Assembly: GCA_013215385.1 (NCBI GenBank)
Contig: JABSOY010000031.1
Location: forward strand, 1 to 32,678
Direction of reading: 5' to 3'
DNA: 32,678 nucleotides
DNA from: Colwellia sp.
GTDB lineage: Bacteria; Pseudomonadota; Gammaproteobacteria; Enterobacterales; Alteromonadaceae
A program made the translations under genes and the position numbers. Of this stretch, positions 25,508-30,279 are shown in pieces (the first letter of the stretch is position 1; each line of letters opens with the position of its first letter). The notes below the pieces were generated by a model, which was not told the DNA's origin, ran no database searches, and worked only from the letters and a program-made list of their open reading frames with translations.

Positions 25508-26818
25508 TTAATTATGGCGCTTTTTCACAGACTTCGAATGATTACGTTTCACTAACGTACTTCGATGGCTTTGTTTGCGACTCGAATTATATTTATGCTT
25601 ACTTGACGAAGCTCTAGTAGCTTTAGCGCTAGACTTACTTGAGCTTTTTTTGTAGATTTTAGATACCACCTTTGTTGTATTTTCCTTTTTAGCACGGCTG
25701 TTCGAATGTTGCACCTTATGAGACTTAATATTTTTATATTTATCAGTAACTACATACTGCTTAGATTTAGGCTTTATGCTGCGATTACTTAATGACTTAT
25801 CTCTACTTGTAGTTATTTTATTCGATTTATTTGACACAAAATGTGAATTATTTTTAACATTACGCTTTAGCTTTTGTTGTAGTGCATAGTGAGAATTATG
25901 ACTAGTTTCACGCACCAGAACTTGCTTATGATTATATTTCGAACGTGTCTGTTTGGTTCGGTAAGCAACACCTTTTCTATGAACTGGTTGGTGTTGCCAA
26001 TGCTTTGCATAACCACCGTTAACAATTAAACGACGCGGACGCTGTTCGTAATAACGATGTTTATAGTGGTGAGTATTCACCACAACCACATGACGATTGC
26101 TCCAATGAAAAGCACTAAAGAAATAATTGAACGAGATATGAATGCCTGAATGATAATAGAAAGGGTTATAATGACTTACATAAACACTATGATGAGGCTT
26201 CCAGTAAACAGGTGGATAAGAAACTGAATGCCAAGTGCCATAAACCATTCGCGTATCATAATAAGGAACATAAACAATTTCCTTTTCTATGGGTTCAATA
26301 ACAATATTATTGTCTTCATAACTAACATCCATGTTATCCATTTTCTGAAGATTACCTGCAAGCTGAGCTTGTTTCCTAAGTTCTTGAATGCTTTCTAATA
26401 ATCTTGACTCATCTTGTAAAAAAGCATCTCCAAGTTGCTGAGTCCACGTTAAGTCTTCACTAAGTCGACTAAGAATACGTTCAAAAGGCACTAGCGCCTT
26501 AACACTGGCGTCCCAATTAAAGTCTTTAACCGATTGTGCAGCGTTCTCTGTACTTAAGCCTTTATTTTTCTTCAACCACCGGTGAGCTTCCACTATTTCA
26601 ATAGGATAAGTAGAAGCAATTAAAATATGGGTCAATAGACTGTCGGGATATAGTGCAATAGGCGCTAGCATTTGAGCTAATTCGTCTTCACTAAATGGCT
26701 GAGTCTCAGCCTGAACTTGCTGCTGTTGATTCGACAGCCTAGGCGTTTGCTCGGCTAATAAATTGAAACTGACCAAAGAACTGGCTATAAAACTGAATAG
26801 AAAAATGAAGTTTTTCAT
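25508..26818 (-). CDS. DUF3300 domain exported protein with long cationic tail
   Basis: Exported protein of 436 residues with an N-terminal signal peptide (cleavage near LLAEQ). The DUF3300 domain spans about 40-255 and is recognisable by FSEDELAQMLAPIALYPDSL, LTHILIASTYPIEIVEAHRW, DFNWDASVKALVPFERIL and IEPIEKEIVYVPYYDTRMVYG, followed by an aromatic and His-rich segment. About 170 C-terminal residues are very rich in Lys, Arg, His and Ser, so the mature protein should be strongly basic. The domain's function is not known. The Shine-Dalgarno AGGA is well placed. A TTCAG-N6-TTCAG box and -10 lie 34-66 nt upstream, matching those of the adjacent two-component operon. Confidence 0.88.
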   Translation of the reverse strand: MKNFIFLFSFIASSLVSFNLLAEQTPRLSNQQQQVQAETQPFSEDELAQMLAPIALYPDSLLTHILIASTYPIEIVEAHRWLKKNKGLSTENAAQSVKDFNWDASVKALVPFERILSRLSEDLTWTQQLGDAFLQDESRLLESIQELRKQAQLAGNLQKMDNMDVSYEDNNIVIEPIEKEIVYVPYYDTRMVYGTWHSVSYPPVYWKPHHSVYVSHYNPFYYHSGIHISFNYFFSAFHWSNRHVVVVNTHHYKHRYYEQRPRRLIVNGGYAKHWQHQPVHRKGVAYRTKQTRSKYNHKQVLVRETSHNSHYALQQKLKRNVKNNSHFVSNKSNKITTSRDKSLSNRSIKPKSKQYVVTDKYKNIKSHKVQHSNSRAKKENTTKVVSKIYKKSSSKSSAKATRASSSKHKYNSSRKQSHRSTLVKRNHSKSVKKRHN

Positions 26819-26851: not shown

Positions 26852-26884
26852 AGGATAACAAGACTAAACTGAACGTAAGCTGAA
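26852..26884 (-). promoter_or_regulatory. Direct-repeat activator box and -10 of the DUF3300 gene
   Basis: On the minus strand TTCAGCTTACGTTCAG (26869-26884) is an 11-bp-period direct repeat of TTCAG. The hexamer TATCCT (26852-26857) begins exactly 11 nt after the second repeat. Sequence, period and -10 distance match the two boxes at 29321-29410. Confidence 0.7.
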
Positions 26885-26888
26885 TAAC

Positions 26889-26917
26889 TTTATACACTCA
26901 GTTCTTTTATACACTCA
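26889..26917. repeat. 12-bp direct repeat, period 17
   Basis: TTTATACACTCA occurs at 26889-26900 and again at 26906-26917, between the kinase stop codon and the DUF3300 promoter box. It may be a second regulator site or a small duplication. Confidence 0.5.
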
Positions 26918-26940
26918 CTTTTAATTCAAATTAGCTAAAA

Positions 26941-28290
26941 TTAGCTGAAGGGGTCAAAGCTAATAATAAAAGCAGCACCGGAGAGTGTCGCTGAGTTAGT
27001 GATAATTAACTGACCTTGATAACTACTTACTAAGTCATTCACAATGGCTAAACCAATACCGTGTCCTGCTAGGTAGGTGTCTGCCCTACCGCCACGAGAT
27101 AAAATAATGTCTTTCTGTGATTCTTTAATGCCATCACCGTCATCGGCTATTTCAATGGTTAACCTTTTGCCACTGATAAGCACCTTTACCGAAACCTTGT
27201 TCTTGGCGGCTTTACAGGCGTTATCTAGCACGTTGCCCAATATCTCCATTAAATCAGCTTCATCACCTTTGAATATCGCATCGGGGTCAACATCAACAGC
27301 AAAAGTTATTTTTTTATCATGGTAAATTTTGGCTAAGGTTAATATAAGCTTGTTAACAACCGGGTTTACTTGCACACCTAAATGCCATGAGGATTGCCCC
27401 GCACTTTGCGCTCTTTTCAGTTGATGCTCGATAATCTGATTTATTAACTGTAATTGCTCACTCGCATTAGCTGGCATATCCGTATTACTTTGAATAACCG
27501 CCAGGGGGTTTTTAAGGCTATGAGCTAAATCAGACAATGCGTTACGATAGCGTTGCCGTTGATTTTCTTCCGTCGCCAGCAAGGTATTTAATTGCTGAGT
27601 AACTTGTTGTAATTCGACTGGATAGATTGCATCTAGGGCTTTTTTTTGCCCTTTCTCTATTTGCTCAAGTTCAAGAGATAAGACGTTAAGTGGTTTTAAT
27701 GTCCATAACAGCCATACAATTTGTACAAAAACAAACACCACCATTAAGACCAATAACCAAGCCCATAATTTCTGCTTAAAATCATTGAGTGCAGTTAAAA
27801 ATTCTTGCTGATCTTTAATAAGATGAAGCGTTATATCAAAGGGTTGACCATTCTCAGAGAAACTGGCACTAAAGCTATAAAGTAAATGACTATTACCTGC
27901 CAAGTTTATTTTTGAATAAATGGTTTGCCCAACCTCAGGCGATGGTAATAATGATGGCAATGATAATGTTAGCAAAGACAATGACTGCCATAATGGCTTA
28001 CTGTTGCTATCTTTTAGTTGTTTATCTTTAGGTAGGGTTTTTATTAATGCATACAGGCCAGATTTACTGACATTAAATTGATTTTCTAACAGAAATTCAG
28101 GCATCAATAATTGCTTATTTTCAACTTCTGCTACCGTAAAAATTGAGTAACTGTAAGCTTTCAGTTCATTCTTCATCGCTAAGTTTAACTGTCGTTCAAA
28201 CGCATTAGTTAAGGTTAAACCGATAATAGGCAACATCACTACCGTCATAACTAAAGTGCTTAATAATAACCGAACTTTTAACGAGTTCAT
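26941..28290 (-). CDS. Sensor histidine kinase, PhoQ-like
   Basis: Membrane sensor kinase of 449 residues. TM1 is at about 8-28, a periplasmic sensor region at about 29-176, TM2 at about 177-197, and a short HAMP-like linker follows. The H-box DLAHSLKNPLAVIQ has phospho-acceptor His257 and resembles PhoQ (DLTHSLKTPLAVLQ). The ATPase domain has N-box EILGNVLDNACKAA, G1 IADDGDGI and G2 GHGIGLAIV, all intact. The periplasmic part differs from PhoQ and its signal is unknown. The start overlaps the response regulator stop (ATGA), so the two are translationally coupled. It phosphorylates the adjacent regulator by inference. Confidence 0.93.
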   Translation of the reverse strand: MNSLKVRLLLSTLVMTVVMLPIIGLTLTNAFERQLNLAMKNELKAYSYSIFTVAEVENKQLLMPEFLLENQFNVSKSGLYALIKTLPKDKQLKDSNSKPLWQSLSLLTLSLPSLLPSPEVGQTIYSKINLAGNSHLLYSFSASFSENGQPFDITLHLIKDQQEFLTALNDFKQKLWAWLLVLMVVFVFVQIVWLLWTLKPLNVLSLELEQIEKGQKKALDAIYPVELQQVTQQLNTLLATEENQRQRYRNALSDLAHSLKNPLAVIQSNTDMPANASEQLQLINQIIEHQLKRAQSAGQSSWHLGVQVNPVVNKLILTLAKIYHDKKITFAVDVDPDAIFKGDEADLMEILGNVLDNACKAAKNKVSVKVLISGKRLTIEIADDGDGIKESQKDIILSRGGRADTYLAGHGIGLAIVNDLVSSYQGQLIITNSATLSGAAFIISFDPFS

Positions 28291-28967
28291 TGGTGATTTA
28301 GTCGCTTTAACTTATAACCATGGCCACGGAGTGTTTCGATAAAGCCGTATTGATTATTGGGATCTAATTTTTTTCTTAGTCGTCTTATAAAGACTTCAAT
28401 TACATTAGAGTCAAGATCAAAATCTTGATCGTAAATATGCTCGGTTAAGGTCGCTTTTGAAGTTACTTCATCAAGATGATACATCATATATTCAAGCAAT
28501 TTATATTCTGAACTACTTAATTTTATTGCTTGCTTATTAACTTCAACCTGAAGGCTTTTGGTATTAATACTTAACGGACCGTTCTTTATCAGCGGGCTCG
28601 CTTTCCCAGCAGAACGTCTGATAAGTGCATTTAAGCGGGCAAGTAACTCTTCGGCTTGAAAAGGTTTTGTTAAATAATCATCGGCCCCAGCATCTAGACC
28701 TTCAACTTTATCTTGCCAGCTATTTCTCGCCGTCAACACGAGAATGGGGAAGTCGATATTTTTTTCGCGCAGTAACCTAATAACACTAATGCCGTCCAAA
28801 AGGGGTAAACCGACATCAATAATAGCTGCATCGTATGGATATTCTTGCCCTTGAAATAAACCTGTTTCACCATCACTTGCTAAATCAACTAAATAATTAG
28901 CCGCGACTAAGTGAGCATTTAAATTTGTTTGCAAAGCAATATCGTCTTCAATTAAAAGTAAGCGCAT
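28287..28967 (-). CDS. OmpR/PhoP-family response regulator
   Basis: DNA-binding response regulator of 226 residues. The receiver domain has the acidic pair in LLLIEDDIA, phospho-acceptor Asp51 (IIDVGLPLLDG), Thr79 and Lys101 (YLTKPF). The C-terminal winged helix (about 125-222) contains LSSSEYKLLEYMMYHLDEVT and SNVIEVFIRRLRKKLDP, with RGHGYKL in the wing. It resembles PhoP and QseB. Proteins of this family bind direct repeats with an 11-bp period, which is what lies before this operon, the DUF3300 gene and the choice-anchor H gene. The PepSY gene ends 2 nt upstream. Confidence 0.95.
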   Translation of the reverse strand: MRLLLIEDDIALQTNLNAHLVAANYLVDLASDGETGLFQGQEYPYDAAIIDVGLPLLDGISVIRLLREKNIDFPILVLTARNSWQDKVEGLDAGADDYLTKPFQAEELLARLNALIRRSAGKASPLIKNGPLSINTKSLQVEVNKQAIKLSSSEYKLLEYMMYHLDEVTSKATLTEHIYDQDFDLDSNVIEVFIRRLRKKLDPNNQYGFIETLRGHGYKLKRLNHQ

Positions 28968-28969
28968 AA

Positions 28970-29269
28970 TTAATGTTTACCCTGAATTTTTCCTGATTTG
29001 GCATCGACATAAACAGAGATTATATGACCATCCGTTTTAATTAATTTAACCCGATAGCCAGATTTACTCTTTTTTACCTTAAGCACTTTCCCACCAAAGC
29101 GAGCTTTCACTATTTTAGCTGCTTGTTTACTACTTTTTACCTTTAACTGTTGATTGCTTTGCTTATTAGATTTAATCGTATTACTTGCAGATACAAAATT
29201 TCCTTGAGCTATAACATCAAGAGAAAATGTGAAAGCAAAAAGAAAAACTAAAGATAAAGCAAGTTTCAT
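28970..29269 (-). CDS. PepSY domain exported protein
   Basis: Small basic periplasmic protein of 99 residues. The signal peptide is at about 1-21 (ALSLVFLFAFTFSLDVIAQG). A Lys/Ser-rich linker follows, then a single PepSY domain at about 47-99 (KQAAKIVKARFGGKVLKVKK, then DGHIISVYVDAKSGKIQG). PepSY domains are thought to inhibit proteases or bind ligands in the envelope. It is the first gene of the PepSY-regulator-kinase operon, 2 nt before the regulator, so a role as accessory sensor or feedback protein for the kinase is a reasonable inference. Its own promoter carries the TTCAG box. Confidence 0.88.
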   Translation of the reverse strand: MKLALSLVFLFAFTFSLDVIAQGNFVSASNTIKSNKQSNQQLKVKSSKQAAKIVKARFGGKVLKVKKSKSGYRVKLIKTDGHIISVYVDAKSGKIQGKH

Positions 29270-29320
29270 TGTTATTCCATGTATCAGGGTAATGGTGTTA
29301 GTCGCTATAGCTTATTTAAA

Positions 29321-29353
29321 ATCATAGATCTTAGCAACTGAATATAAGCTGAA
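29321..29353 (-). promoter_or_regulatory. Direct-repeat activator box and -10 of the PepSY-regulator-kinase operon
   Basis: On the minus strand TTCAGCTTATATTCAG (29338-29353) repeats TTCAG with an 11-bp period. TATGAT (29321-29326) begins exactly 11 nt after the second repeat, 52 nt before the PepSY ATG. This implies autoregulation of the two-component operon. Confidence 0.75.
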
Positions 29354-29377
29354 CAGTTTTAAAAGCGAAATAAAGTG

Positions 29378-29410
29378 TTCAGCTAACATTCAGCTTCATT
29401 GCGTTTTAAT
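29378..29410 (+). promoter_or_regulatory. Direct-repeat activator box and -10 of the choice-anchor H gene
   Basis: On the plus strand TTCAGCTAACATTCAG (29378-29393) repeats TTCAG with an 11-bp period. TTTAAT (29405-29410) begins exactly 11 nt after it, 33 nt before the ATG. This box and the one at 29338-29353 point away from each other in the 173-nt divergent region. Confidence 0.72.
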
Positions 29411-29442: not shown

Positions 29443-30279
29443 ATGTTGATGAATAATAACGTAACTAAAACAGTTAATTCAAATTCGCTTAAACAATTAT
29501 TGCTCTTGTTCACCTTGAGCTTATTGCCATTTACCCAAGTTACGGCCGGTGAGTTAACCACTGATCGGTATACGGTTTCACATGGTGTAGTCAAAAATAG
29601 TATCAACGAGCAACAACGCATAGATATAATTGAAAAAAACAAACTCAAAGAGCTGCCCAATCAACTAAACGCAAAAGCGAGCGGCAAAACAAGGGCTGAT
29701 ATATTAAAAAATAATACAAAGCCGCTTAATATAATTAACAAAAGTAACGGGGCTAAAAACTTAAACAGTGATCATTACGCAGACTTCGTTATTTATAGTG
29801 CAACCAGCTTTTTGCATGAAGATTACGATGGCGATGGTTATTATCAAACGTTCAGTGTGACTTTTGATGCTGATATATATAGTTATACAGACAATCAATT
29901 GGGCGAAGTTTATGCATTGCTCTATCTAAGCAAGAATGGCGGTCCTTGGCTACACTACTTCACCACAGATACATTCCTTATCGAAGGGGATTCTGATTTA
30001 GATGAATATGAAGTTATTACAACTTTTGTCTCGGGTTATAGAAGTGATCACTACGATGTTTTGATAGATTTATACCAAGTAGGCTATAACGATATTGTTG
30101 CCAGTTTAAGTTCAGATGACAGTGGCGCTTTATACGCTTTACCGATAGAAAGTGCCGAATATGACGAACCTTACGTTGAAGTGGTGGAAGTCGTTGAGGT
30201 TAGCGGTGGCAGCATGCACTGGTTAATATTGATATTATTAAGTATTTTATTTCTTCGTGTAAAAACTAAAACTATTTAA
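29443..30279 (+). CDS. Choice-anchor H family protein with GlyGly-CTERM-like tail
   Basis: Exported protein of 278 residues. The signal peptide is at about 16-36 (LKQLLLLFTLSLLPFTQVTA). The core at about 112-240 contains YSATSFLHEDYDGDGYYQTF, SVTFDADIYSYTD, NGGPWLHYFTTDTFLIEGDS and DHYDVLIDLYQVGY, which I recognise as the choice-anchor H family. The Asp/Gly-rich DYDGDGYY loop could bind Ca2+. The C-terminus is SGGSMHWLILILLSILFLRV followed by a basic end: a GlyGly-CTERM-type sorting signal, normally cut by a rhombosortase with release by type II secretion. The Shine-Dalgarno AGGA is well placed. Divergent from the PepSY operon with its own TTCAG box. Confidence 0.85.
   Translation: MLMNNNVTKTVNSNSLKQLLLLFTLSLLPFTQVTAGELTTDRYTVSHGVVKNSINEQQRIDIIEKNKLKELPNQLNAKASGKTRADILKNNTKPLNIINKSNGAKNLNSDHYADFVIYSATSFLHEDYDGDGYYQTFSVTFDADIYSYTDNQLGEVYALLYLSKNGGPWLHYFTTDTFLIEGDSDLDEYEVITTFVSGYRSDHYDVLIDLYQVGYNDIVASLSSDDSGALYALPIESAEYDEPYVEVVEVVEVSGGSMHWLILILLSILFLRVKTKTI

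Follow-up and report, generated by a model that had tools for sequence, protein, structure and literature searches.

A conserved TTCAG box suggests one membrane-protection switch behind a PepSY two-component operon, a DUF3300 gene and a choice-of-anchor H gene in Colwellia

Introduction

Do three neighbouring transcription units of Colwellia sp. answer to the one response regulator (RR) that is encoded among them? The units lie on contig JABSOY010000031.1 (assembly GCA_013215385.1), which was analysed over its whole length of 32,678 nucleotides and is called the window below. They comprise an operon for a small PepSY protein, an OmpR-family RR and a sensor histidine kinase (HK), a gene for a DUF3300 protein, and a gene for a choice-of-anchor H protein (AnchH). 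A previous interpretation, made from the letters of the DNA alone (the sequence-only reading), had described a box of two TTCAG pentamers, six nucleotides apart, before each unit, and had proposed that the adjacent RR activates all three. Here we report that in Colwellia, Shewanella and marine relatives the same box stands at a fixed distance before the three units, including genomes in which they are no longer neighbours. This suggests that the PepSY-RR-HK operon, DUF3300 and AnchH form one membrane-protection switch.

Results and discussion

Three promoters share a box

The three boxes and their hexamers were confirmed where the sequence-only reading had placed them, with each hexamer exactly 11 nt past its box. 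On the minus strand, the DUF3300 box (TTCAGCTTACGTTCAG, 26869..26884) is followed by TATCCT (26852..26857), and the box of the PepSY-RR-HK operon (TTCAGCTTATATTCAG, 29338..29353), which would serve autoregulation, by TATGAT (29321..29326). On the plus strand, the AnchH box (TTCAGCTAACATTCAG, 29378..29393) is followed by TTTAAT (29405..29410). All three are exact TTCAG-N6-TTCAG repeats. With a 17-bp spacer, the –35 place is taken by GCTTAC, GCTTAT and GCTAAC, respectively, none of which is close to the consensus TTGACA. The lack of a consensus-like –35 element at the three promoters fits promoters that need an activator.

In the window, the full 16-mer with the core CTWAYR between the pentamers has three exact matches. 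With up to three mismatches it was found four times compared to a shuffle mean of 2.31; 24 of 100 shuffles reached four, which is not significant. As this loosened count did not exceed chance, the boxes could not be established from the window by itself. TTCAG-N6-TTCAG with at most one mismatch occurred six times (shuffle mean 2.21; 1 of 100 shuffles as high). Across the whole genome (5.10 Mb), 13 bare exact repeats were counted versus nine for the reversed control, and three of the 13 fall within 2.5 kb at this locus. When TWNNNT at 11 nt was demanded in addition, four sites were left, three of them being the boxes described here. The fourth site (C17:71700) is weak, with TTGATT at 11 nt and then only a 60-aa open reading frame, and the genome scan for a wider regulon gave nothing beyond it. 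Sites with one mismatch and TWNNNT numbered 24 more versus 18 in the control (at most one mismatch), which is near background. The decisive support for the boxes is conservation, not window statistics.

The box is conserved at orthologous loci

In a family-level search, 126 of the 147 genomes proved to encode the RR, absence being defined as no RR at E 1e-60. Loci with an RR identity of at least 65% (L020–L070, including the added genome G003) were combined with the window into a high group of 52 loci. The low group consists of the 29 loci (L071–L099) that were fetched out of the 75 with weaker RRs, which brings the fetched blocks to 80 and leaves 46 of the 75 without a block. Within the high-group blocks, PepSY was present together with RR and HK in 52/52, DUF3300 in 44/52 and AnchH in 47/52. 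An exact box on the gene strand, at most 450 nt upstream, preceded 40 of the 52 PepSY genes, 39 of the 44 DUF3300 genes and 31 of the 47 AnchH genes. Replacing the spacer of six by 2–5 or 7–11 nt yielded only one match in 44 (DUF3300, spacer 2) and one in 52 (PepSY, spacer 11). No exact box was found upstream of the HK gene, inside the operon, at any of the 52 high-group loci. A –10 hexamer, for which the high-group filter required a final T, stood exactly 11 nt past the exact box in 36/40 (PepSY), 39/39 (DUF3300) and 28/31 cases (AnchH); at AnchH the element TT[TA]AAT was likewise found at this distance in 28 of 31 promoters.

When one mismatch was allowed in the box, box and –10 were found before all 44 DUF3300 genes (16/16 genera), before 44 of 47 AnchH genes (16/16 genera) and before the operon in 45 of 52 cases within 1,100 nt (17/18 genera) or 38 of 52 within 450 nt. 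The corresponding means for 57 permuted pentamers were 0.02, 0.02, 0.05 and 0.04. These counts show conservation of the motif across orthologous loci, and the sequence-only reading thereby passed a refutation test that it had set itself. That reading had also given the six middle letters of the box as a shared core. The box itself, its 6-nt spacer and the 11-nt distance were kept, and the core CTWAYR proved over-specified: it is a genus-level feature, and the 16-mer was rejected as a consensus because N6 varies widely among other genera. In genus g14 (L043–L046) an extra gene heads the operon and the box precedes that gene, the product of which carries a glycine-zipper domain in G126 (L346). 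In the low group, the 1,100 nt upstream of the 27 loci with a PepSY match contained the box alone in 26 cases and box plus –10 in 18.

An order-level search found the HK in 80 of 247 genomes, and 40 loci were fetched. Eighteen of them, from families f6 and f11, constitute a Shewanella-like set; we infer that f6 is Shewanella. In this set, a box with at most one mismatch plus –10 preceded 11/13 DUF3300 and 15/16 AnchH genes. The half-sites of f6 mostly read TTCAG-N6-TTCAT. The two f11 loci (L101, L104) had no box, and neither DUF3300 nor AnchH within the fetched block. Named Shewanella loci (L146, L151, L154–L156, L159) contain the same five genes.

Unlinked target genes keep the box

Targets that are unlinked to the regulator provide the strongest test of a regulon. 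In six high-group genomes the sole DUF3300 gene lies outside the block, and the exact box with –10 was found in 6/6. These genomes are G013 and G044, which were noticed through their boxes, and G018, G065, G098 and G126 of genus g14. In the same four g14 genomes the sole AnchH gene likewise lies outside the block, and in 4/4 an exact box and TTAAAT precede it. The DUF3300 gene of G079, located on another contig and equipped with a box, was not counted as moved because the contig of the operon ends inside the HK gene.

For the low group we analysed the upstream regions of 26 unlinked DUF3300 genes (8 genera) and 24 unlinked AnchH genes (11 genera), a subset of those listed; unlinked here means on another contig than the RR gene or far away on the same contig, in fragmented assemblies where distance is not proven. 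A box with at most one mismatch was present in 26/26 and 24/24, respectively, compared to permuted means of 1.1 and 1.3, and other spacers gave 0–4 matches. At 11 nt, 19 of the 26 DUF3300 promoters carried TATAAC, TATAAG or TATAAA. The box is kept at unlinked genes and is therefore conserved while gene order is not.

The unlinked AnchH promoters (L285–L288, L309–L328) showed a further feature, as 19 of the 24 contain three half-sites with an 11-bp period. Two-domain AnchH genes, on another contig than the RR gene or far from it, were encountered at L265 (G027), G033:C234 and G076:C605; all three carry a TTCAG box, followed at 11 nt by TTTAAT or TTAAAT.

The motif follows the regulator

The pattern TTCAGN6TTCAGN11TWNNNT was found 299 times in the 147 genomes and its reversed control 37 times, demonstrating that the motif with its –10 is nonrandom across genomes. 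The 51 genomes with a high-identity RR contributed 154 sites (control 13) and the 21 genomes without RR nine (control 4). Most exact sites of the high genomes lie in the blocks, since 111 of the 154 were found in the fetched blocks of these 51 genomes (at most about 12.7 kb; L023 left out). The target genes co-occurred with the RR as well: AnchH was detected in 106/126 genomes with RR versus 1/21 without (G109, 80% complete; Fisher p 1e-12), DUF3300 in 103/126 versus 4/21 (Fisher p 3e-8). The recognition helix DSNVIEVF[IV]RRLRKK was found in 51 of the 52 high-group RRs, the second variable residue being R in 52/52 and in 17/18 RRs of f6 and f11. The motif thus tracks both the RR and the target genes, even unlinked ones, and on this sequence evidence a one-regulator regulon, as originally proposed, appears well supported.

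Weighing the evidence

Several observations weigh against a single regulon governed by this RR. The counts stem from related genomes and are not independent events, the Fisher tests ignore phylogeny, and the moved genes of the high group originate from three genera. All four genomes that hold DUF3300 and lack the RR belong to genus g26. The second variable helix residue is G, L or K in 29/29 low-group RRs, with the box kept. Box plus –10 was missing before the operon at 7/52 high-group loci within 1,100 nt (14/52 within 450 nt) and before 3/47 AnchH genes, and the second AnchH gene of G004 had no box. Only 2/18 PepSY operons of f6 and f11 carried box plus –10; the box alone was present in 14/18, with GATAAT at 11 nt in seven. 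Among the unlinked low-group genes, the box of L289 is possibly due to chance, and the high-group –10 filter retained 0/26 DUF3300 and 0/24 AnchH promoters, because it demanded a final T and thereby hid the low-group promoters. In 12 of the 24 AnchH promoters the element at 11 nt was CACACT or CACAAT, which are poor –10s; similar elements stood at 11 nt in most of the remaining ones.

Could the boxes belong to another regulator? Genomes of this kind encode numerous regulators of the OmpR family, and several of these recognise direct repeats with an 11-bp period; one of them might bind the boxes while the neighbouring RR is only another target. The four RR-negative genomes that still hold DUF3300 would agree with this. 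We nevertheless consider it improbable, as box plus –10 is rare without the RR (nine sites, control 4, in 21 genomes) and frequent with it, stands before the operon that encodes the RR in 17/18 genera of the high group, and is accompanied in the high group by a nearly constant recognition helix. Even less probable, in our view, is that the RR binds the boxes and represses, covering the –35 region and blocking polymerase. The site does overlap the –35 place, but with GCTTAC, GCTTAT and GCTAAC standing there polymerase has no discernible –35 element that could be covered, and the constant spacing between box and –10 resembles class II activation. Moreover, the available sections of PMC4682146 describe BqsR as an activator, and according to those of PMC12714742 phosphorylated DbfR accompanies a more active dbfQRS promoter. 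Finally, repeats without function, arising by chance or composition, would explain why this genome holds the bare repeat hardly more often (13) than the control (9). This explanation becomes negligible in view of the conservation at both linked and unlinked genes and of the 299 versus 37 sites in 147 genomes.

A proposed envelope switch

We hold it to be very probable that the locus encodes an envelope-sensing two-component system of the DbfQRS/BqsRS type whose RR, by analogy with those systems, activates its own operon, DUF3300 and AnchH. The PepSY protein would probably restrain the HK in the periplasm, and a disturbance of the outer membrane or of its cations would lead the HK to phosphorylate the RR. 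The phosphorylated RR would then occupy both TTCAG half-sites in a head-to-tail arrangement on the same side of the double helix, as suggested by the 11-bp period, replace the missing –35 element and recruit sigma-70 RNA polymerase, with the –10 at a constant 11 nt (class II activation). Raised expression of the RR's own operon would provide positive feedback, with more PepSY protein as a brake. At the DUF3300 promoter, a probably secreted cationic protein would be made, and at the AnchH promoter a surface protein that would be processed by rhombosortase. The members of the regulon would take part in a shared envelope response.

Gene block and encoded proteins

The operon is transcribed from the minus strand and begins with the PepSY gene (28970..29269), which encodes 99 aa matching PF03413 (32.2 bits) with a hydrophobic N-terminus resembling a signal peptide. 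It is followed by the OmpR-family RR gene (28287..28967, minus strand; 226 aa with D8, D9, D51 and K101). When the parts of the RR were searched separately, CarR chains 8gc6 (receiver) and 9yfa (DNA-binding) were the best solved matches; for the receiver, CarR and PhoP were nearly level (114.3 and 114.0 bits), and a query with the complete RR put full-length prrA first. The HK gene (26941..28290, minus strand) encodes 449 aa. HATPase_c scored above its cutoff and HisKA under it (24.7 bits, cutoff 26.9); H257 is invariant in the HK alignment and has H254 as its counterpart in VC1639.

The DUF3300 gene (25508..26818, minus strand) encodes a protein of 436 aa with an isoelectric point (pI) of 10.0 that matches PF11737 with 294.2 bits (cutoff 25) and is the sole match in its genome. 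Its C-terminal tail is cationic (net +41 over 160 aa). In the structure model, the N-terminal part is helical and most of the rest has a predicted local distance difference test score (pLDDT) below 50 (mean 52.7). The protein is cationic and probably secreted; lipopolysaccharide (LPS) or other polyanions may be its ligand, which is a guess.

The AnchH gene (29443..30279, plus strand) is divergent from the operon and encodes 278 aa (pI 4.6). It is the sole match of its genome to NF038116 (134.7 bits, cutoff 53). A C-terminal GlyGly-CTERM signal was recognised (TIGR03501, 18.7 bits, cutoff 15.5), and the genome encodes a rhombosortase (TIGR03902, 161.7 bits, cutoff 84; contig C26:17032-17487), so that surface delivery of AnchH is likely, judging from these two matches. 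In the three relatives' AnchH proteins that were scanned, TIGR03501 was below cutoff or unlisted. The structure model is a beta-sandwich (mean pLDDT 73.1); a fold search returned 11 matches at E ≤0.001, all generic beta-sandwiches with query TM-scores (template modelling scores) of at most 0.28, from which no function could be read.

Likeness to known systems

The gene order found here, in which a small PepSY gene immediately precedes those of RR and HK on the same strand, is that of DbfQRS/BqsRS-type systems. In the available parts of PMC12714742, the PepSY protein DbfQ of V. cholerae is reported to bind the sensor and favour its phosphatase activity, the dbfQRS promoter to be approximately 40-fold more active in mutants with phosphorylated DbfR, and the system to be activated by LPS defects, polymyxin B and thymol. 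The portion of PMC5636140 at hand states that VC1638/VC1639 control vca0732/visP upon polymyxin B. The output reported for DbfQRS is either broad, with 540 genes in a dbfS deletion as far as the accessible text goes, or vca0732/visP. Our locus shares with DbfQRS the PepSY-RR-HK order on one strand and the RR residues D8, D9, D51 and K101, which match the numbering published for VC1638 in the accessible part of PMC5636140; positive autoregulation there, as indicated in the partial text, is paralleled by a box before the operon here. Differences were evident as well: DUF3300 is absent from the main text of PMC12714742, and neither choice-of-anchor H nor an operator was found in the available portions of PMC12714742 and PMC5636140.

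BqsRS/CarRS resembles our system in having PepSY genes beside the two-component system (PMC12714742, available part), in an operator of pentamer-N6-pentamer type at the –35 region and in the CarR-named best structures. According to the accessible sections of PMC4682146, BqsR of P. aeruginosa is an activator acting on TTAAG-N6-TTAAG, the downstream pentamer of which overlaps the –35 at the promoters described; the pentamer there is TTAAG, one base apart from the TTCAG found here. BqsRS senses Fe2+, as stated in the parts of PMC4682146 and PMC12666569 at hand.

The sequence-only reading had called the sensor PhoQ-like. This stood in a broad sense: both systems have an OmpR-family RR, and PhoQ is the nearest solved structure for the HK catalytic domain. 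PhoPQ also has a direct-repeat promoter architecture like the one here, with a different half-site. The narrow sense failed, as HK and RR scored under the NCBIfam equivalog cutoffs for PhoQ (202.8 bits, cutoff 497) and PhoP (196.3 bits, cutoff 336), and a PepSY gene adjoins here; the closest architecture is PepSY-RR-HK (DbfQRS, BqsRS). Two candidate relations were not taken up. E. coli YacH is also a DUF3300 protein, from outside this lineage, but the 355 nt upstream of yacH in K-12 MG1655 have at least three pentamer mismatches throughout and hence no box, and yacH was rejected as a further target. The gene hm502 of Shewanella vesiculosa was not adopted as this PepSY gene because the available part of its source assigns the product to the inner membrane.

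The regulator class is thus already known. The TTCAG operator and the DUF3300/AnchH effector pair are apparently new: neither the operator with its 11-nt rule nor DUF3300 and choice-of-anchor H as effectors were found in open-licence literature, a body of text that leaves subscription journals mostly outside, and the same literature yielded no paper on choice-of-anchor H. Two families of unknown function, DUF3300 and choice-of-anchor H, are tied to one regulator through box conservation at unlinked genes. The boxes supply an exactly defined operator for two-component systems of a class that is widespread and has been little mapped. The PepSY-RR-HK response becomes directly testable in harmless marine bacteria through three or four promoters, and the box with its 11-nt rule allows effector sets of other genomes to be predicted.

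Wider relatives

Among the further loci of the order-level search (L118–L139, of which L139 falls in the family of the window and L132 and L133 represent second copies), the operon or its head gene was preceded in 9/22 by an exact box and, 11 nt past it, TANNNT. We also inspected the best 80 loci listed by similarity to the window's HK, named loci from Gammaproteobacteria and some Betaproteobacteria, of which 79 had an RR anchor. When the pattern was relaxed to TT[CA]A[GT] for both half-sites and a –10 at 10–12 nt, 57/79 gave a match at most 1.6 kb upstream of the RR; the 57 permuted pentamers averaged 0.18 and never exceeded 2. Under the strict pattern, 27 of the 79 regions upstream of the RR gave a match versus 0 in the control.

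The TTCAG box might mark an old, class-wide PepSY-RR-HK envelope-stress regulon of Gammaproteobacteria and some Betaproteobacteria, with a Cpx-like role, in which operon and box geometry stay constant while effectors are swapped; we regard this as evenly balanced between right and wrong. The effectors would be DUF3300 and AnchH in Colwellia, Shewanella and relatives, a glycine-zipper head protein elsewhere, and OmpA, Slp, DsbA or BamA in some lineages. If this holds, protecting the outer membrane would be the dedicated task of both these families of unknown function.

In six of the nine loci with an exact box in L118–L139 (L119, L120, L130, L136–L138), another gene lies between box and PepSY; the two such head genes that were scanned (L120, L130) encode glycine-zipper domains.

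Exact boxes with –10 were also seen in chosen low-group genomes (L251, L259, L264, L332, L334, L337, L354) before envelope genes encoding crystallin-like, porin, OmpA, Slp, DsbA, POTRA (BamA-type) and lipoprotein products, which is a broader envelope set than the window's genome shows; part of these exact matches is due to chance (control approximately 0.25 per genome). In Rheinheimera and Alishewanella (L180, L183, L185), mixed TTCAG-N6-TTAAG boxes occur together with the recognition helix VLRLRKK, and such mixed boxes could represent a natural step between TTCAG and TTAAG operators.

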